Origin: Bacteroidales bacterium
GTDB taxonomy: Bacteria > Bacteroidota > Bacteroidia > Bacteroidales > UBA3824
NCBI GenBank assembly: GCA_017535325.1
Contig: JAFXUC010000024.1
Span: 62,001 to 126,000, forward strand
Direction: 5' to 3'
Length of the DNA: 64,000 nucleotides
The position numbers and the translations under genes are program-made. Below are positions 15,339 to 35,970 of this stretch, one piece after another. Each line of letters begins with the position of its first letter. Within the stretch, counting starts at the first letter, position 1. The notes beneath the pieces were generated by a model. It made no database searches and was not told where the DNA came from. It was given only the letters and a program-made list of their open reading frames with translations.

Positions 15339-16409
15339 TCAGGAATTAAGTTTTTCCAAATGACAGAGCATCAGTGAATCGTCGGCATTGTGAAGGTGCA
15401 TACCGCCGCCCTCGCAGAATTTGAAGAATTTGCAGTCTTTGCATATACCTTTTTTTGCCCAGTCCCTTACGCGGAATTTTTGAAAGCGGTTTTCCCAGAC
15501 GTCCCAAAAGTCGTCCTTGTAGATATTGCCTTGCGAAAACACCGCCCTGATACCAGGACACGCCGAAATAGAGCCGTCGCTCATCACCGAGGCAACCGAA
15601 ACGCCCGCCTCGCAACTGTAAAAATAGTCCCTGACTTCGCTTTCGTAACGACCCAAAAAGCCTTCACAACTGTAACTTACGTGTTTGCCATCTTTGCGGC
15701 ACTGCTTTATAAACTCCATCAACTCACGCAGTTGAGCCCCGTTCAACTGCAAATCGGGATTGTCCTTTGCCCTGCCAGCCGGAAAAGCCGAAAACACGCG
15801 CCAGTCTTTTACGCCGATGCCAAAGAGTTTGTCTTTCAGTTCATTAAGACCTTTAAGGCTGTGAGGCGTTACGCATGTGGCAACATCAAAAACTATATTG
15901 CCGGAATATTTGCAAAGAAGCGAAATCGCCGAAAAAGCACGCTGCCAACTCTGAGGATTGCCGCGCATAAAATTATGGTCTTCCTCGTTGCCGTCAAGAC
16001 TCACCGTAACACTGCGGAGTCCGCTCAGAATCAAGGCTCTCAGTCTTTCTTCCGTCAACAGCATACCGTTTGTTACCATGCCCCACGGAAAGCCGCGCTT
16101 GTAAAGTTCTTTGCCGACCGCCTCCAAATCGTGCCTTAAAAGCGGCTCGCCGCCCGTAATGATAATCATCGTGTGATTAGGATCTACGTGCGGCGAAACC
16201 GAATCTATAACCTTTAAAAAGTCTTCCGCCGGCATGTCTTTGATTTGACTTTTGTCGAGACACGCACTTCCGCAATGACGGCATTTGAGATTGCAGCGCA
16301 AAGTGCATTCCCAAAACAACTGCCCCAAAACGTGAAGTTTTTTGCGGTTTTCTTTTACCGAGCGCGAGAGCGTAAGTCCGATACGCTTTTTTAAAGATAA
16401 TTCTCCCAT
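15339..16409 (-). CDS. Radical SAM/SPASM enzyme of the rSAM/lipoprotein system
   Basis: This 356-aa protein has the radical SAM motif C39-x3-C43-x2-C46 (CNLKCRHC), the GGEPLL SAM-binding motif, and a cysteine-rich SPASM-like C-terminus (SACPGI, GICKDCKFFKFCEGGGMHLH, LMLCHLE). The CEGGGMHLH phrase and two partner lipoproteins immediately upstream fit the TIGR04133/TIGR04134 'rSAM/lipoprotein system' of Bacteroidota. SPASM enzymes usually carry extra Fe-S clusters and modify peptides or proteins; the reaction of this subfamily is unknown. It starts 6 nt after the second lipoprotein, so it is last in the run. The lipoproteins are the obvious candidate substrates, by inference only. Confidence 0.85.
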   Translation of the reverse strand: MGELSLKKRIGLTLSRSVKENRKKLHVLGQLFWECTLRCNLKCRHCGSACLDKSQIKDMPAEDFLKVIDSVSPHVDPNHTMIIITGGEPLLRHDLEAVGKELYKRGFPWGMVTNGMLLTEERLRALILSGLRSVTVSLDGNEEDHNFMRGNPQSWQRAFSAISLLCKYSGNIVFDVATCVTPHSLKGLNELKDKLFGIGVKDWRVFSAFPAGRAKDNPDLQLNGAQLRELMEFIKQCRKDGKHVSYSCEGFLGRYESEVRDYFYSCEAGVSVASVMSDGSISACPGIRAVFSQGNIYKDDFWDVWENRFQKFRVRDWAKKGICKDCKFFKFCEGGGMHLHNADDSLMLCHLEKLNS

Positions 16410-27524: not shown

Positions 27525-27553
27525 TTTTTCCATAATAAACACGTAAAAAAAGA

Positions 27554-27588
27554 AACGCGAAAGATATAAAAAGTCTTTCGCGTTTTTT
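27554..27588. terminator. Bidirectional terminator between mltD and msrA
   Basis: AACGCGAAAGA (27554-27564) and TCTTTCGCGTT (27574-27584) form a perfect 11-bp stem with T-runs on both strands, placed between two converging genes. Confidence 0.85.
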
Positions 27589-27596
27589 GTTTATGC

Positions 27597-28109
27597 TTAT
27601 TTTCTTGCCTTCGCTTTTTTTGCAAACTCAAAAAGTTCCAACGGAAGATGGCAGTACCCGTCGGGATTTTTGTCAAGATAATCCTGATGATATTCTTCGG
27701 CAGGATAATAGTTTTTGAGTTTTGAGATTTCCGTAACGATAGGTTTGTCGTAAAACTTCTGAACCTCAGCAAAATAATCTCTGATAATATTTTCGTCGCT
27801 CTCATCAACGAAATAAACGCCGGTGCGGTAACGAGTACCCTCGTCATGTCCCTGACGGTTCAATATAGTCGGATCGATGGCGTGAAAAAACATTTCAAGA
27901 AGGAATCTCAAACCGACAATATTTTCGTCGTAAACTACTTTTACGGTTTCGGCAAAACCTGTTTTGTCGGTGTAAACTTCTTTGTACGTGGGGTTTACAG
28001 TGTTTCCGTTGGCAAATCCGGTTTCAGTTTCTTTTACGCCTTCCACCTGCTTGAAAAAATGCTCCGTGCCCCAAAAGCATCCGCCAGCAAAATATATTTC
28101 TTTCATCAT
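27597..28109 (-). CDS. msrA: Peptide methionine (S)-S-oxide reductase MsrA
   Basis: MsrA reduces the S-epimer of methionine sulfoxide in proteins. The 170-aa length and motifs are standard: AGGCFWGTEHFF with the catalytic cysteine and adjacent Phe/Trp/Glu residues, TGFANG (usually TGYAGG), YHQDYLDKNPDGYCH near the end, and FFHAIDPTILNRQGHDEGTRYRTGVYF. No resolving-cysteine tail or fused MsrB is seen. It is likely cytoplasmic because there is no signal peptide. The promoter box is at 28133-28140. Confidence 0.95.
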   Translation of the reverse strand: MMKEIYFAGGCFWGTEHFFKQVEGVKETETGFANGNTVNPTYKEVYTDKTGFAETVKVVYDENIVGLRFLLEMFFHAIDPTILNRQGHDEGTRYRTGVYFVDESDENIIRDYFAEVQKFYDKPIVTEISKLKNYYPAEEYHQDYLDKNPDGYCHLPLELFEFAKKAKARK

Positions 28110-28132
28110 TGTTAATTTTTTTATTTTGTCCG

Positions 28133-28140
28133 CAAAAGTA
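28133..28140 (-). promoter_or_regulatory. -7 box of msrA
   Basis: Minus-strand TACTTTTG fits TAnnTTTG, about 24 nt before the start codon. Confidence 0.55.
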
Positions 28141-28195
28141 GAAAATTATAAGCACAAAAAAAAGAAATTTATCTTTTAGTATCTAAATAAAATAC

Positions 28196-28203
28196 TACCT
28201 TTG
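28196..28203 (+). promoter_or_regulatory. -7 box of the GNAT gene
   Basis: TACCTTTG fits TAnnTTTG, 19 nt before the start codon; TTT rather than TTG is at the expected -33 spacing. Confidence 0.55.
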
Positions 28204-28222
28204 CCGCAAAAACTCTTTAACC

Positions 28223-28768
28223 ATGCACTACAACAAAACCATAACACTAAAAAATTCCACCCTCTGCACCCTTCGCAATGCTGATGAATGCGACGGTGCA
28301 GCGGTGCTTGACGTGTTTTTGTTGACACACCGTCAGACGGATTTTTTGTTATCATACGCAGACGAAAACACTTTTACCGCCGAGGACGAAAGTCGTTATC
28401 TTAAAGCGAAAACCGAAAGCCCCGATGAAATAGAAATCCTTGCTGAAATCAACGGAAAAGTCATCGGTACGGCAGGATTTGAAAAAATCGGCGGACATTG
28501 CAAAGTAAAACACCGTGCTGATTTCGGTATCGGCATCAACGAAGAATATTGGGGCTTGGGTGTCGGCTCGGCACTCACCGCCGCCTGCATCGAATGTGCA
28601 AAAAAAGCCGGTTACAAGCAGTTGGAACTTCAATGCGTCGCCGAAAATAAAAAGGCGTTAAACCTTTATAAAAAATTCGGTTTCGTGGAGTTCGGCAGGA
28701 ATCCGTTGGGCTTTAATTCAAGAAATTCCGGTTTTCAGGAATTGGTGTATATGAGGAAAGAATTGTGA
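28223..28768 (+). CDS. GNAT family N-acetyltransferase
   Basis: This 181-aa protein has the GNAT acetyltransferase fold. The acetyl-CoA loop motif is in GINEEYWGLGVGSALTAACIECAKKAG (Q/R-x-x-G-x-G/A type, here WGLGVGSAL), preceded by a beta-bulge strand (RADFGIGI) and followed by LELQCVAENKKALNLYKKFGFVEFGR, which is typical of RimJ/RimL- and ribosomal-like acetyltransferases. It transfers an acetyl group from acetyl-CoA to an unknown amine. It is cytoplasmic and apparently a single-gene unit. Confidence 0.88.
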   Translation: MHYNKTITLKNSTLCTLRNADECDGAAVLDVFLLTHRQTDFLLSYADENTFTAEDESRYLKAKTESPDEIEILAEINGKVIGTAGFEKIGGHCKVKHRADFGIGINEEYWGLGVGSALTAACIECAKKAGYKQLELQCVAENKKALNLYKKFGFVEFGRNPLGFNSRNSGFQELVYMRKEL

Positions 28769-28802
28769 AGAAAATCTATTTTGATATTTGATAAATATCA
28801 GT

Positions 28803-28810
28803 TATCTTTG
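28803..28810 (+). promoter_or_regulatory. -7 box upstream of the Rpn remnant and defence operon
   Basis: TATCTTTG fits TAnnTTTG. It is the nearest promoter candidate for both the remnant and the three genes at 29094-35280. Confidence 0.55.
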
Positions 28811-28821
28811 CCAAAAACTAA

Positions 28822-29079
28822 AAAGTTTACGAAGATGAGCAACTGCGCGGCGACCTCGACTTGGAGCAATACGTTTGGAACAACCAACTGAAAATGGAAC
28901 GCCGCACACAAGAACTGCAAGGTCGCATCGACGAAATGGGTGCGCAATTATCGCAACAGAAGGCGCAAATCGCCGCCGCTATCAAAGCACTTTCCGCGAC
29001 AAATACGGCGGCTCAAATTGCTCAAATTTTGAATATCAGTCAACAGCAAGTTGAAGAGATTTTGAACTTAGAGGCTTAA
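28822..29079 (+). pseudogene. C-terminal remnant of an Rpn-type nuclease gene
   Basis: From 28822 an open frame encodes EDEQLRGDLDLEQYVWNN, a coiled, Q-rich stretch and a final small helical domain (TAAQIAQILNISQQQVEEIL), the usual end of Rpn-type proteins. The N-terminal nuclease domain with its D and E-x-Q residues is absent. An ATG at 28832 is out of frame and stops after 18 codons, so the 5' end and 3' end appear joined by an internal deletion. In-frame starts are TTG 28861 (72 aa) or ATG 28894 (61 aa). It could be dead, or express a C-terminal fragment only. Confidence 0.7.
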
Positions 29080-29093
29080 AATAACGTAAGACA

Positions 29094-30299
29094 ATGGAAA
29101 TCGGTTGGATAGATTTTTCGGACACGGACAGAAAGAAGGCTTTGAATGTTATCGCTTTGCTCAATGATGAGGGCGCGGTAGATGAAATAGGAATCGGTAT
29201 CGTCAGAGATGCTTTTGCCGATAGATTTTTCCCGGGAACATCAACAATTCAAACTCGTGCGAAATATTTTTTCATCGTGCCGTATGCTATCAAAAAAGCG
29301 TTGCAAATAAAATCGTTGGAAAACTACAAGTTGGTTTTAAGCGAAATAGAAAACAACATCGAAAAGGATTGTGCAAAAAAACTAAAAAAATCCACAAATG
29401 AACGGGAAGGTGTTATAGGTGCAAGGTCTTTGCCGAAATCGTGGGTTTCAAGAAAACCGTCCTCTATCTATTGGAACGGTCTCAAAACCTTTGGAATCTT
29501 CACAAAACTGCACCTTTCGCTTGCGGAATATATTCATTTGGAATTGGAAAACCGTAAAAAGTTTGCCAACCAAAATACCAAATCAAAAAACAAAACGGAC
29601 AACGATGCAAGCGATTTTGATGACGATGATGCCGGAAAAGAACGTTCAGCCACTTTTTGGAATCTGCCCGAATACGATGAACAAAATTGGATGAAAGAAC
29701 TTAAAATCAATTTGACAAAAGCCGAAGCCGGACATTTGCGGAAAATGATTTCCGAAAACTTGCAAGGCTCTTTGTTTAAGTTTTTGCTTGACAACAACAT
29801 AAAACTTAAAGAAAATGCTCCTTTTGAAAGTGTTTTCGAACAGATTTTTGATAAACTTTCACCTGAAAATCAAGAACTTGTACGTTTAGCAAATCTGTTC
29901 AATATTCTTGTCTGTCTGTGCAGAACACGCTACAACATTATACTTTTAGGCGAAAATTCATTCGGTTTGAAAGATAAGTGGGATGGTTATTTCCAACGTG
30001 TTCAAGAATTGGAAAATCTTGACATTGAGCATCTTTTCAAAACACTAAAATTGCCTGTGACGGGAACGACAGTATTTTTGAATAATGCAAAAAGGCTGCT
30101 TTTAGAGAACGACATTCAGGATTTGGACTATGAAATAATAAAGCGGGAGAGGAATCTTAAAGGCGAAAAACGGGCAAAACTGCTCAATAAAAACTCTTAT
30201 ACAGAGCCGGTTGCACAATATGAATTAGATTACCGTCTAAAAACTGCAATCAAAATTTTAAACGATATTTATCAAGGGGAGGAACAAGAAAATGTTTAA
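29094..30299 (+). CDS. DUF6361 family protein of a putative defence operon
   Basis: This 401-aa protein starts IGWIDFSDTDRKKALNVIALL and continues VDEIGIGIVRDAFADRFFPGTSTIQTRAKYFFIVPY, which I recognise as the N-terminal signature of DUF6361. There is no signal peptide or obvious catalytic motif; a lysine/aspartate-rich linker (KSKNKTDNDASDFDDDDAGKE) interrupts the middle. DUF6361 genes tend to occur beside PLD-nuclease and helicase genes, as here, so a role in anti-phage or plasmid defence is inferred. It overlaps the next gene by 8 nt. The base composition is clearly more AT-rich than the surrounding housekeeping genes. Confidence 0.75.
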   Translation: MEIGWIDFSDTDRKKALNVIALLNDEGAVDEIGIGIVRDAFADRFFPGTSTIQTRAKYFFIVPYAIKKALQIKSLENYKLVLSEIENNIEKDCAKKLKKSTNEREGVIGARSLPKSWVSRKPSSIYWNGLKTFGIFTKLHLSLAEYIHLELENRKKFANQNTKSKNKTDNDASDFDDDDAGKERSATFWNLPEYDEQNWMKELKINLTKAEAGHLRKMISENLQGSLFKFLLDNNIKLKENAPFESVFEQIFDKLSPENQELVRLANLFNILVCLCRTRYNIILLGENSFGLKDKWDGYFQRVQELENLDIEHLFKTLKLPVTGTTVFLNNAKRLLLENDIQDLDYEIIKRERNLKGEKRAKLLNKNSYTEPVAQYELDYRLKTAIKILNDIYQGEEQENV

Positions 30300-32091
30300 T
30301 CCGAAATCAAGCAAAGACCGTCAGAATTACGGCGACATAATTGCACCTGAACCCGAATATGTTTTGGTAAACGCAGTAACTACCACATATTCTTTGGATT
30401 TGGAGACATTGACATCTTGCACTCTGTCGTTATCGTTAGGCGAGGCAACCGACAGTCAACTTGTCAGAAATCCGATAAATCTTCTTTATGCCATACATAG
30501 GGCGGCAGGCAGAATTATTGTTTTCTGCGAGTCATCACAGATAAAACTTCCGAAAAAGAAATCAAAACTTTCGGGGCTTTTGGAAAATTCAATAGTTCCC
30601 GTTTCACTGCCTGAAACTAAAAACGGTTTTCCGTCGTTTCATCCTAAAACGTGGATTTTGAAATATGAAAATATTGAAACAAAAGAAGTTAAGTTTCGAT
30701 TCATAGTTCTTAGCCGAAACCTTACTTTCGATAGAAGTTGGGACGTTTCAGTGTGTTTGGACGGAAAAATATCCGAAGACGAAGACCCAAAAACACGTCC
30801 GCTTATAGATTTTTTGTCGTTTTTGAAACAGCAAATTAATGAAAACGGCAGCGCAAAATCAGAAATAATTGGCGGCTTTATAAATGAGTTAAAAAAAGTA
30901 AGTTTTTCGACAGAAGATACTGATTTTACAGATTTTGAAATTTTGCCGCTCGGAATTGGCACTGCTGACATAAAAAACGACCATTTGTTTGCCGGAAAAT
31001 TTAAGGATTTAGCGGTAATGTCGCCGTTTGTTTCAAAATCCGTTATCAACAAGTTTATTTCGCTGAGACAAACATATTCCACTTTAACGTTGATAACAAG
31101 AAAAGAGGAACTTGAAAAAATAAAATCATTGGAATATTGGCGTTTGAATGCTTATTGTCTTAAAGATGAAATAGTTAACGGAGAAAATTTTCTCCCTGAT
31201 TATGAAAATTCTGAAGAAATTGACAACATTCCGCCCTCTGACATTCATGCAAAAATTTATGTAAAAACTACAACAAAAGATAAGACTTATGTTTATTTAG
31301 GCTCTATGAATGCCTCGCAAAACGGTGTAGACCGCAATGTAGAAATGCTTTTGAAATTAAGGAACGATAACTTTACGCCGTCGGCTTTTATTGAAGATTT
31401 AGGTTTGAACGAAGAAAACTCCCTATTTGAAAAAATGGCTTTGTATAACATAAAAACAGAAAAAGAAGAAGTTAAAGATGATAATGAAACTGTTTTAAAA
31501 CAAATTTTACGGCTTCCAATTTCCGCCGAAATTCATCAGGCAAACGGTTGTTACAATGCCGTGTTACGTTTCAAGGATTTTGTTACAACCAATTATGCTG
31601 TAAAAATAGCACCGTTTATGCTCGAAAATTTCAAAAAAGATTTATCGGAAACTATTGTTTTTGACGGATTAAAATTAGAGCAACTTTCGCAGTTATATAT
31701 AATTGAAATTGGTGATTTACAACGTGTTATTATGATTCCAACATTAGGAATGCCCGATGACAGGGAAAAAATGATTATCAAATCTGTGATTTCCAACCGT
31801 CGGAAACTTTCCGAATACATTGCTTTCATTTTAGGTGATGATAAACTACAAACTTTCGCCGAAAACGAAGAAGATATGGAAATGTTGGAAACGGAATTTT
31901 CAGACAATATTTCTTCTAAAAATCAAAATATAATGTTTCCCGTTTACGAAAAAATGTTGAAAGCCGCATATACAAATCCTGAAAGGCTTAAAGAAATTGA
32001 TGACATTATCAAACTGATTGATGACGAAGAAATTATAAATCAAGAGTTTAAAGATATGTATACGACATTTAAATCAACTTTAAAATTTTGA
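30292..32091 (+). CDS. Phospholipase D-like nuclease of a putative defence operon
   Basis: This 599-aa protein carries two HKD-like motifs of the PLD superfamily: FHPKTW near residue 115, followed by SRNLTFDRSWD, and IHAKIYVK near residue 318, followed by the G-S-x-N element GSMNASQNGVDRN. PLD-type nucleases cleave nucleic acid through a covalent phosphohistidine intermediate. There is no secretion signal, so it should be cytoplasmic. The C-terminal third has no recognised domain. It overlaps the DUF6361 gene and ends 3 nt before the helicase gene. A PLD nuclease with a helicase resembles known defence systems such as DISARM (drmC) or Mokosh, but the full gene set differs. Confidence 0.8.
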   Translation: MFNPKSSKDRQNYGDIIAPEPEYVLVNAVTTTYSLDLETLTSCTLSLSLGEATDSQLVRNPINLLYAIHRAAGRIIVFCESSQIKLPKKKSKLSGLLENSIVPVSLPETKNGFPSFHPKTWILKYENIETKEVKFRFIVLSRNLTFDRSWDVSVCLDGKISEDEDPKTRPLIDFLSFLKQQINENGSAKSEIIGGFINELKKVSFSTEDTDFTDFEILPLGIGTADIKNDHLFAGKFKDLAVMSPFVSKSVINKFISLRQTYSTLTLITRKEELEKIKSLEYWRLNAYCLKDEIVNGENFLPDYENSEEIDNIPPSDIHAKIYVKTTTKDKTYVYLGSMNASQNGVDRNVEMLLKLRNDNFTPSAFIEDLGLNEENSLFEKMALYNIKTEKEEVKDDNETVLKQILRLPISAEIHQANGCYNAVLRFKDFVTTNYAVKIAPFMLENFKKDLSETIVFDGLKLEQLSQLYIIEIGDLQRVIMIPTLGMPDDREKMIIKSVISNRRKLSEYIAFILGDDKLQTFAENEEDMEMLETEFSDNISSKNQNIMFPVYEKMLKAAYTNPERLKEIDDIIKLIDDEEIINQEFKDMYTTFKSTLKF

Positions 32092-32094
32092 GAA

Positions 32095-35000
32095 ATGGAC
32101 ATACTTGAAGAGATTAATCAAGCCGAGAATATAGTTTTGCCTCAACTAAAAGATTTTCAAAGGGCTACCGTTGAAAGGGTAGATTACCTTTTCCGTAACG
32201 GGCAGGACAGAGTTTTAGTTGCTGATGAGGTTGGAATGGGTAAAACTCTTATTGCAAAAGGTGTTATAGCCAAGACTGCCAAATTGCGTTACGAGGAAAA
32301 CGATGACCTTTTTAAAGTGGTTTATATTTGTTCTAATCAGAGTATTGCAAATCAAAATCTTGATAAACTTGACATTTTCAATTCCCGTGATATAGACGGA
32401 GAATTATCATCTTGGCGGCTTTCAATGCAGTTTTATGCTATTGCAAGGAGTGAAAAAAAAATCAAAGAGCAGGGTAAATATGTTCAAATGATAACTTTAA
32501 CGCCTGAAACGTCGTTCAAGCAAAAAAGTGGAATCGGAACGGCAAAAGAACGTTTTTTGTTGAAACAAGGTTTAGAGCAACTCATAAAACACGATGACAA
32601 TATCAGTTACACCGATAAAAACTTGTATATGTCAAAACTTGACGGGGTAATGCAAGGCGGTGTCAATCATTTTTCTTGGATAAGTTATTCAAAAGAGTTC
32701 AATGTTTTTAATGTAGTGCCGTATAAGTCTGAAATTCATAAACTTCTTTTATCAGAGGAAGATTTTTTACAAAAAATTTACGAATATCTGAGTAATAAAG
32801 GCTGTTCAAAATATTTTGACAACGACAGCCGTTTTATCAACTTTATCCGCAAAAGTTTTGCAAAGGCAAGTATTAAAATGTTGAATCCCGACCTTGTGAT
32901 AATGGACGAGTTTCAGAGGTTTAATTTCTTGATTAACAGCGATGATGAAGAAAACGACGCCGCTATTCTCGCTAAAAGTTTTTTGACAAGTTCAAATCCT
33001 GATTCCGCTGCCGCTAAAATCAGAGTTTTGTTGCTATCGGCAACGCCGTATAAACTATACACAACGCTTGAAGAATTAGACGAGAAAAATAATGATGAAC
33101 ATTACACAGAATTTAATACAGTTATTAAATTCTTGTACAACAATGATTTAAAATTTAAGAATTATAAAAATGTTTGGAATGATTATTCTGTTGCATTAAG
33201 GGAATTAAAAAATGAAGAAAATGCTGTTTTGGTTTTAAAAACCAACAAGGATAAAGCCGAAAACGTTTTATACAACTGTATTTGCCGCACGGAACGAATA
33301 TCGGTAATGGGCAATTCGGATTTCATAGATGATAGCACCAAAAACAATCCGTTGAAAATAAAAGGCAGTGATATAAATGCGTATCTTCACATCATCAAAA
33401 TCATAGCAGAAAATAATATAAATGTCAAATTTTCAATAGATTACATCAAAAGTAGTCCGTACATACTTTCATTTATGACTATATATGATGTAAAAAAGCA
33501 AATTGTCAATTATTTTAGTCATAATCTTGATAAAAAAACGCTTCTGAAAAGTTCGCTTTTGTGGCTGAACAAAGACGATATTAAAAATTATAAAAAACTT
33601 CCCGAAGTTAACGCACGTTTGGAAAGACTTAAAAATGAGGTTTTTAACTCAAAAACGGATGATGTTAAAAACCGTCCGGATTTGTTTCTTTGGGTAACAC
33701 CGTCTCAACCGTATTACGAGTTTGGCGGAGTTTACCGCGGTAGCGAAGGCTTTTCAAAAATTCTCATTTTTTCAGCATGGTCAATGGTTCCGCGAATGAT
33801 TGGCAGTATGATTTCATACGAAGAAGAACGCCGTACTATTGGGCGGTTAATCCGTCAAAAAAACAAAGAAGGCAAAAAAATGACCGCTGATTATTTTGCA
33901 AATTACCGTTATCCTCAGTCCCGTTTGCCGCTTTCACAAGAAACGGTTTTCACACTACTCTATCCGTCAAAATTTTTAGCGGAGATTTTTGTTCCTGATG
34001 TTTCTAACGGGCTTATGCCGTTGCCGGAATTGGAAAAGAAACTTTATAAAATCATAGAAGAAAAACTCCAACCGTTCATTGAGCAATATGACACAAAAAC
34101 GGGCAACGTTGATAACAGTTGGTATTGGGCTGCGCCTATGATGCTTGACGGTTTTGATTACGGAACACTATGGTTGTATTATTTGCGAAGAAGTAACGAT
34201 GAAGATGCCAAACAATTGACCTCAATGTGTCAAAAAATAGAAGACAAAATCATTCACAAAAATTTTGGCAAATGCCCTGATAAAAAAGAACTTATTAATA
34301 CATTGGTTAATATGACGTTAGGCTCGCCGGCTGTGTGCATTTACAGAAATTTGAAAGAACGTGAATTAGCAGTCAAATTGGCACTCCAATTTAGGAAATA
34401 CTTTAATTCTCCTGAACGCACGGCAATTATAGAACTTTCCGTTATTCAGAAAAAGTATAAAGAAAACGACCATTGGCAGGACGTTTTGGTTTATTGTAAA
34501 AACGGCAATTTTCAGGCTATGATTGACGAGTATATTCATCTTTTGCGGGACACATATTCTGATGCCAACAAATTGTATCAAGCATTTGCAGAGTCGCTAA
34601 CAATTCGTACAGCAGCCTATCAAATAGAAACTTACGATGATTTTGGTAATGAAAACAGTTTACCTCCGAAAATCCGAACTCACTATGCAGTCGGCTTTAC
34701 GGATTCAACAAAAGCGGAAAAAGGTATAGCAAGAAAAGATGTGTTGCGCAAGACTTTTAATTCCCCATTTTGGCCTTTTGTAATGGCTTCTACTTCAATA
34801 GGTCAGGAAGGTTTGGATTTTCATCTTTATTGCCGCAAAGTAATGCATTGGAATTTGCCGTCCAATCCGATAGATTTGGAACAACGAGAAGGTAGGATAA
34901 ACCGTTTTAAGTGCTTGGCAATAAGACAAAACATTGCAGAAAGGTATTCTTCTGTGATTGATTATCAGTCAAAAGGCGATTTGTGGCAAAAGATGTTTGA

Positions 35001-35280
35001 AGCCGCTCACACAGAAAAACCGAAAGGCAAAAGTGATTTAATTCCGTTTTGGTGTTTAGAAGAAAATCAAAAGTACAAAATAGAACGTATTTTGGCTCAT
35101 TATCCTATAAGTAAAGACGAGATAATTTATGAAAGGCTTATCAAAATTCTTTCGCTCTACCGACTCACTTTGGGACAGCCTCGTCAGGAAGAACTTTTAG
35201 AATATGTATTCAGAGAGTTTGGAAACTGCGAAGAGTTGAAAGATTTGTTTATAAATCTAAGTCCGTTCTCAAAAAAATAA
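32095..35280 (+). CDS. Large superfamily 2 helicase of a putative defence operon
   Basis: This 1061-aa protein has SF2/SNF2-like helicase motifs: Walker A in VADEVGMGKTLIAKG near residue 45, a DEAH-like box MDEFQRF near 270, motif III LLSATPYKLY near 315, and motifs V/VI in TSIGQEGLDFHLYCRKVMHWNLPSN and DLEQREGRINRFK near 915-935. The long gap between the two RecA-like lobes (~320-700) holds extra domains. SF2 proteins of this kind translocate on double-stranded DNA or RNA using ATP. It is the last and largest gene of the DUF6361-PLD-helicase operon and probably its motor. There is no visible methyltransferase or kinase domain. Confidence 0.85.
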   Translation: MDILEEINQAENIVLPQLKDFQRATVERVDYLFRNGQDRVLVADEVGMGKTLIAKGVIAKTAKLRYEENDDLFKVVYICSNQSIANQNLDKLDIFNSRDIDGELSSWRLSMQFYAIARSEKKIKEQGKYVQMITLTPETSFKQKSGIGTAKERFLLKQGLEQLIKHDDNISYTDKNLYMSKLDGVMQGGVNHFSWISYSKEFNVFNVVPYKSEIHKLLLSEEDFLQKIYEYLSNKGCSKYFDNDSRFINFIRKSFAKASIKMLNPDLVIMDEFQRFNFLINSDDEENDAAILAKSFLTSSNPDSAAAKIRVLLLSATPYKLYTTLEELDEKNNDEHYTEFNTVIKFLYNNDLKFKNYKNVWNDYSVALRELKNEENAVLVLKTNKDKAENVLYNCICRTERISVMGNSDFIDDSTKNNPLKIKGSDINAYLHIIKIIAENNINVKFSIDYIKSSPYILSFMTIYDVKKQIVNYFSHNLDKKTLLKSSLLWLNKDDIKNYKKLPEVNARLERLKNEVFNSKTDDVKNRPDLFLWVTPSQPYYEFGGVYRGSEGFSKILIFSAWSMVPRMIGSMISYEEERRTIGRLIRQKNKEGKKMTADYFANYRYPQSRLPLSQETVFTLLYPSKFLAEIFVPDVSNGLMPLPELEKKLYKIIEEKLQPFIEQYDTKTGNVDNSWYWAAPMMLDGFDYGTLWLYYLRRSNDEDAKQLTSMCQKIEDKIIHKNFGKCPDKKELINTLVNMTLGSPAVCIYRNLKERELAVKLALQFRKYFNSPERTAIIELSVIQKKYKENDHWQDVLVYCKNGNFQAMIDEYIHLLRDTYSDANKLYQAFAESLTIRTAAYQIETYDDFGNENSLPPKIRTHYAVGFTDSTKAEKGIARKDVLRKTFNSPFWPFVMASTSIGQEGLDFHLYCRKVMHWNLPSNPIDLEQREGRINRFKCLAIRQNIAERYSSVIDYQSKGDLWQKMFEAAHTEKPKGKSDLIPFWCLEENQKYKIERILAHYPISKDEIIYERLIKILSLYRLTLGQPRQEELLEYVFREFGNCEELKDLFINLSPFSKK

Positions 35281-35308
35281 TCATAAATCTGCAGCTTGAT
35301 TTAATTTC

Positions 35309-35409
35309 GATAACTTAGCGGAATCGCCTAAAAAATCACACATTCCGCTAAGTTATCCGCGATAGCATAGCGGAATCTGCAAAAAAAATACACATTCCGC
35401 TATGTTATC
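35309..35409. repeat. Two tandem covarying hairpins (REP-like)
   Basis: Hairpin 1: arms 35309-35324 and 35342-35357, 16 bp, perfect. Hairpin 2: arms 35361-35376 and 35394-35409, 16 bp with one G-U/A-C type difference. Both have 17-nt loops. Hairpin 1 pairs CTTAGC with GCTAAG and hairpin 2 pairs CATAGC with GCTATG, a compensated change. No T-run follows either strand. They fill the 178-nt gap after the helicase gene. Confidence 0.85.
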
Positions 35410-35458
35410 TAAAAAAATCAACTTCTCTCTTGTAATATTTGCACCATTTAATTTTCTA

Positions 35459-35848
35459 TTAGCAAACAATTAAACTTTTAATCGTTTTTTTCCCCATCAC
35501 CTTAAAAATCCCGAAAACGCAAATAATTCCAATCGTATACGCCAATAAATCAATCCATAAAAAACCTTGACCAAGCATCATGTGTCCTACAAATGTCTTG
35601 CGAAACGCAACCAAAAACGGCCATGTTATCAACTGCGAAAACTCCACAAGAAAAGCACTTATCAAACTGATAAGTGCGATTGTTGAAAGTTTTTTTCTAT
35701 GCAAAATAATACGCCATATACAGAATACCATCATCGCCCAAAGAGCATCGCCTATTTCATTTGGAATTGAGCCAATTTGTCTTGAAATTAATCCCAAAGG
35801 CATCAAAACAGCAATTCCGATTAGAGATATTATGATATTGCGTTTCAT
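35459..35848 (-). CDS. DUF2809 family membrane protein
   Basis: This 129-aa protein has four predicted membrane helices and the DUF2809 signatures GDALWAMMVFCIWR, LVEFSQLITWP, GHMMLGQGFLWIDLLAYTIGI. Function of the family is unknown; it is an inner-membrane protein, distantly reminiscent of VanZ-like proteins. It is transcribed on its own from the box at 35893-35900, opposite in direction to the defence operon. Confidence 0.85.
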   Translation of the reverse strand: MKRNIIISLIGIAVLMPLGLISRQIGSIPNEIGDALWAMMVFCIWRIILHRKKLSTIALISLISAFLVEFSQLITWPFLVAFRKTFVGHMMLGQGFLWIDLLAYTIGIICVFGIFKVMGKKTIKSLIVC

Positions 35849-35892
35849 TTTTTGGGTGGCAAAATATCATTGTTAATTTTTTTATTTGTCTG

Positions 35893-35900
35893 CAAAGGTA
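35893..35900 (-). promoter_or_regulatory. -7 box of the DUF2809 gene
   Basis: Minus-strand TACCTTTG fits TAnnTTTG, about 45 nt before the start codon. Confidence 0.5.
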
Positions 35901-35925
35901 GAAAAATTCTAATCATAAAAAAAAT

Positions 35926-35961
35926 AAAAACGGAATTGTCTAAAAAGGCAATTCCGTTTTT
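35926..35961. terminator. Bidirectional terminator after the outer-membrane barrel gene
   Basis: Arms 35926-35940 and 35947-35961 (core CGGAATTG / CAATTCCG) form a long stem with T-runs on both sides, 10 nt after the minus-strand stop at 35971. Confidence 0.85.
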
Positions 35962-35970
35962 TTTTTATCA

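Follow-up and report, generated by a model that had tools for sequence, protein, structure and literature searches.

Protein profiles and gene order point to an intact copy of the Azaca (ZacABC) anti-phage system, with a predicted HKN-type ZacB, in a Bacteroidales genome

Introduction

Azaca stands among the anti-phage systems of Millman et al. 2022, work that is cited in PMC10121019, and listings of defence systems credit it with a PLD domain part (PMC10952713) and name ZacC as its helicase (PMC12278908). Its mechanism is still given as unknown in papers of 2023 and 2026 (PMC10482375, PMC12926258). Some other described systems are assembled from comparable parts. DISARM, in its class 1 form with DrmD, also has an SNF2-like helicase and a PLD protein, to which it adds a methyltransferase, the helicase DrmA and the DUF1998 protein DrmB, while Mokosh has a helicase and a PLD-type nuclease. 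Hachiman (HamAB) pairs a helicase with a nuclease in two genes, and includes a DUF1837 protein; its helicase recognises abnormal DNA and releases the nuclease, which then destroys all DNA (PMC12278908). Within the PLD superfamily, TDP1 belongs to the HKN branch, with two H-K-N triads (H263/K265/N283 and H493/K495/N516) and a histidine nucleophile (PMC11405833).

In this work we compare with these systems a three-gene locus found in a 64-kb stretch of Bacteroidales DNA, hereafter referred to as the window.

Layout and Identity of the Locus

The three genes lie on the forward strand as intact open reading frames: zacA (29094–30299, 401 aa, matching the PADLOC ZacA profile and Pfam DUF6361), zacB (30292–32091, 599 aa, a PLD superfamily member by the PADLOC ZacB profile and its predicted fold) and zacC (32095–35280, 1061 aa, an SF2, SNF2-like helicase/ATPase by the PADLOC ZacC profile and helicase motifs). 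The initial annotation had described a tightly packed operon that is AT-rich relative to its neighbours, and both points hold, with exact coordinates, an overlap of 8 nt between zacA and zacB, and a spacing of 3 nt between zacB and zacC. The trio belongs to an AT-rich block of approximately 6.9 kb (29080–35966) that also contains a DUF2809 gene and was delimited by blastn and by reading the junctions against the matching locus of a sister species (L029). The GC content of this block is 35.0%, which falls below the minimum of 38.3% among 88 other same-size windows across the 64 kb (mean 41.8%, sd 1.6), and third-position GC is 0.31–0.37 in the block vs. 0.47–0.54 in the nearby ParA, ParB, MltD, outer-membrane and GDSL genes. 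The surroundings of zacABC in the window are housekeeping genes, with no defence island.

Each protein matches its Azaca profile in PADLOC-DB over essentially the full length. ZacA aligns through residues 3–396 to positions 5–394 of a 396-position profile (E 2.8e-85), ZacB through residues 1–597 to positions 1–581 of 586 (E 2e-135), and ZacC through residues 11–1059 to positions 6–1018 of 1019 (E 9.7e-286), and the genes are adjacent and co-directional in the order A-B-C. On the strength of these protein profiles and the gene order, the trio is almost certainly an intact copy of the already described Azaca system: all three full-length components are present in the same order and on the same strand, in genes that overlap or nearly touch, and the difference is one of sequence divergence only, with no extra gene needed. 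The view that this is probably a defence system is supported, since all three proteins match one named system and relatives recur beside defence genes. Of the two options that had been left for it, a distinct system or one catalogued under a name that could not be confirmed, the second is correct and the profile search that had been proposed supplies the name, while the supposed novelty gives way to the match with a described system, the very outcome that the initial annotation had named as refuting it. The locus in the window is a new copy of a known system, and hence no discovery in itself.

The exclusion of DISARM and Mokosh by the initial annotation was also correct. Neither the trio nor its nearest neighbours include a methyltransferase, a DrmA helicase or a DrmB protein, and the cross-matches to the DrmA, DrmC and DrmD models are short, at only about 40–60 residues; those of ZacC to DrmD and of ZacB to DrmC are weak and local. 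With an E limit of 0.1, the PADLOC search gave no Mokosh model for any of the three proteins. Hachiman can be set aside as well, with no match to DUF1837 (HamA) or HamB in the Pfam and PADLOC profiles, and it differs in having two genes where the trio has three, with a nuclease of another superfamily, yet its pairing of a helicase with a nuclease provides a useful mechanistic analogy. Other helicase systems among the PADLOC profiles cross-match the trio over short motif stretches only.

The window holds further elements near the trio. The DUF2809 gene encodes a membrane protein on the reverse strand (35459–35848, Pfam E 3.1e-25), and has a third-position GC of 0.354, like the trio; it has no PADLOC match and lies outside Azaca as PADLOC models it. 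Directly after zacC, a repeat search found two tandem 50-nt inverted repeats (35308–35409) with the core AGCGGAAT, part of which has a few close copies elsewhere in the genome. A perfect 22-bp repeat (28105–28126 and 35866–35887) was considered as an insertion footprint and rejected, as its positions differ from the block ends and it sits at the starts of two genes, msrA and the DUF2809 gene; it is probably a shared Bacteroidota promoter or leader. Farther away, at 15339–16409, a radical SAM/SPASM protein gives a moderate match to the PADLOC viperin models (2.5e-17), although an ordinary maturase of the radical SAM type is the likelier identity.

Component Proteins

The description of the third gene product as an SF2 helicase of 1061 aa with full motifs is well founded. 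The Pfam matches of ZacC to DEAD, ResIII and Helicase_C all exceed their cut-offs, and motifs I (GKT), II (DEFQ), III (SAT) and VI (QREGRxxR) are invariant across 20 homologues. The families nearest to ZacC are SNF2-like, namely DrmD, DpdE and RapA, with weak matches to DrmD and RapA, and Dicer-related helicases also match the ZacC profile weakly (E 3.6e-04 and 8.4e-04).

The first gene does encode a DUF6361 protein, as had been read from the sequence (Pfam E 2.2e-22). The predicted structure of ZacA is all-helical with a pLDDT of 77, and its most conserved stretch is FPGxSTxxTRxxY at residues 46–58. No sequence relative was found among solved proteins (best E 0.37), and the fold search returned nothing significant (best Foldseek E 0.52, best VIA-align Z 3.9), a result that does not amount to a new fold. 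A role as adaptor, sensor or regulator seems probable for ZacA.

The second protein had been described as a PLD protein with two HKD-like motifs, of which the PLD fold and the two sites stand and the HKD assignment does not. The Pfam matches of ZacB to PLDc_2 (3.8e-05) and RE_NgoFVII (2e-04) are both slightly below the curated cut-offs. Its two half-sites have the form HxK...N, made up of H117/K119/N143 and H319/K321/N340, and both triads are invariant among 19 proteins. The HKD motif in its classical form would require HxK(x)4D at each half-site and is not found: HxK is present in 19/19, and the motif aspartate occurs in 0/19 at site 1 and 2/19 at site 2. The structure predicted for ZacB (pLDDT 77, pTM 0.80) places a two-lobed PLD fold at residues 1–396, the alignment rows for the structure predictions having been kept free of plasmid-derived sequences. 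The two H-K-N triads thus occur within one chain that has a two-lobed PLD fold, as expected of the HKN type.

The best fold match of residues 1–396 is yeast TDP1 (Z 21.8, 300 aligned residues, rmsd 3.8), which shares with ZacB two HxK...N triads without a conserved aspartate. The two proteins differ in sequence, with about 16–17% identity over the aligned residues, and ZacB, unlike TDP1, carries an additional C-terminal region of ~210 aa. Further PLD folds match at Z 18–21, within 1–3 Z units of TDP1, including a phospholipase D at Z 20.7. Because phospholipases and phosphatidylserine synthase score this close to TDP1, the substrate of ZacB cannot be read from its fold. Weak sequence matches include the DNA restriction PLDs of BfiI type (2c1l) and NgoAVII (4rct). 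Taken as a structural model, ZacB is predicted to be a PLD-superfamily phosphodiesterase of HKN type; in an incomplete search of the literature, we found no paper stating this.

Relatives and Arrival of the Locus

Besides the window, 18 of the loci that we read contain three complete zac genes, and the A-B-C order is kept in every relative where it is readable, from Bacteroidota, Actinobacteria and Pseudomonadota to a haloarchaeon. Plasmid-borne copies occur in Haliscomenobacter, Halomarina (an archaeon), Cronobacter, Bradyrhizobium, Mesorhizobium, Phaeobacter, Methylocystis and Janthinobacterium, and further zacABC loci come from a genome of Serinicoccus and from other members of the Bacteroidota. 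Five loci are incomplete, three at contig ends (L024, L025, L053; the rest of zacC from the L025 genome lies on L004) and two on plasmids with broken genes, zacA being in pieces in L041 and zacB split in L042. The trio is sparse, with 4/18 genomes in the genus, and with 2/393 at the order level and 4/395 at the class level (about 1% at these two levels). The identity of ZacC is 56% to the nearest congeners and about 31–33% to the best plasmid-borne relatives. A scan with ZacA, ZacB and ZacC alignments confirmed no relatives on viral contigs. The one near-full-length match filed as bacteriophage (L013, MT835621.1), in which zacABC comes after a type I restriction locus with an integrase, is probably a misfiled bacterial contig.

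The initial annotation had also proposed asking whether the trio recurs next to known defence genes, and several relatives do adjoin restriction, AddAB-like or AbiE genes. Type I restriction genes adjoin zacABC in L011 and L013, and in L011 the trio lies within the restriction operon, with the S and R genes on either side; AbiE adjoins it in L015. On four plasmids, from Bradyrhizobium, Mesorhizobium, Agrobacterium and Methylocystis, zacABC is directly adjoined by an AddAB-like pair of a PD-(D/E)XK nuclease and a UvrD-helicase (L015 1–4945, L039 1–4852, L042 1–4842, L043 11739–17506), which may be a recurrent Azaca partner. A different neighbour was seen in genome G173, where a 1499-aa DpdF-like helicase (L028 11763–16262) is divergent from zacABC with a 2OG-Fe(II) oxygenase-like gene in between.

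The arrival of the trio can be followed by comparison with a sister species (G008), which at this site has an MltD 96% identical and an outer-membrane protein 87% identical to those of the window. The two flanking genes are ~1.2 kb apart in G008 vs. 8.4 kb in the window. By blastn and reading of the junctions against L029, the ~6.9-kb block is missing at the matching site, and zacC is absent from the G008 genome. What lies between the flanking genes there is a single intact gene for a 328-aa protein (L029 4883–5869), of which the window retains a decayed copy on the forward strand (28783–29073; 72% identity to residues 216–326, with in-frame stops). This gene is multi-copy, with 11 matching places in the window's genome, and its intact G008 copy matches no family of Pfam at E up to 0.001 and none of NCBIfam at E up to 1; Rpn-type nuclease/transposase, a name suggested by appearance only, is not claimed for it. 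The block runs from directly past the stop codon of the remnant up to the outer-membrane gene. G008 likewise lacks, at this site, the msrA and GNAT genes (27535–28760). Azaca is present in three congeners with a ZacC only about 56% identical, and in one of these (G002) it lies on a contig separate from both flanking genes. The absence of the block from the matching site in G008, together with its low GC, suggests that zacABC was gained recently in the window lineage, at a variable chromosomal site. Gain in the window lineage is the simplest reading, and loss of the block in G008 is a less likely source of the same pattern.

Discussion

A scheme in which the ZacC motor feeds foreign nucleic acid to ZacB for phosphodiester cleavage, and ZacA serves as an adaptor or regulator, seems the most reasonable account of the system, and we give it a probability of roughly 0.55–0.6. 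The SNF2-like ATPase ZacC would bind and translocate on foreign nucleic acid or abnormal DNA ends and pass the nucleic acid to ZacB, in which the two HxK...N half-sites of the single chain would form one active site and cut phosphodiester bonds via a covalent histidine intermediate, with no metal required. The helical ZacA would connect or license ZacB and ZacC. The ZacB triads and ZacC helicase motifs are invariant across phyla and in an archaeon; the substrate, the division of labour, the trigger and the outcome for the cell are inferred. DNA is the more likely target than RNA, because the motor is SNF2-like and ZacB has matches to DNA enzymes.

That preference bears on a rival account, in which Azaca would be an RNA system: the ATPase of ZacC would depend on RNA, and ZacB would be an RNase acting on phage or host transcripts, so that the infected cell is shut down. 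Both SF2 helicases and PLD enzymes are capable of acting on RNA and the ZacC profile does reach Dicer-related helicases, but the better of its weak matches are the SNF2-type dsDNA translocases RapA and DrmD, and for ZacB the TDP1 DNA enzymes are the best folds and the weak sequence matches include the DNA restriction PLDs of BfiI type and NgoAVII; we consider this account decidedly unlikely. Unlikely as well, if less strongly so, is a sensor of damage or DNA ends modelled by analogy on Hachiman, whose helicase would detect abnormal DNA and free a nuclease that destroys all DNA and kills the cell. The broad list of parts is indeed equal to that of Hachiman, yet HamA, a D-E(X)K nuclease of the DUF1837 family, has no counterpart in the trio, and ZacB is an unrelated PLD enzyme.

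It is also conceivable that the trio is inactive as defence in this genome, being silent, decaying or devoted to DNA repair, and its isolation among housekeeping genes and the broken plasmid copies elsewhere would agree with this. The three frames in the window are intact, however, with every invariant catalytic residue present, and the rare, patchy distribution fits defence rather than repair, which makes inactivity very improbable. There is a small chance that ZacB is an HKN phosphodiesterase similar to TDP1 and acts on DNA ends or protein-DNA linkages, such as those of phage terminal proteins or trapped topoisomerases, which the ZacC motor would supply. If this were true, Azaca would be a defence that targets ends or adducts, and not a general restriction nuclease.

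Specific mutants and substrates with which the mechanism of Azaca can be approached are suggested by the invariant residues, together with the predicted HKN/TDP1-like fold of ZacB, and the HKN reading of ZacB adds a useful, testable detail to a known system. The window species and the empty site in its sister species G008 form a natural pair for a comparison of phage susceptibility.
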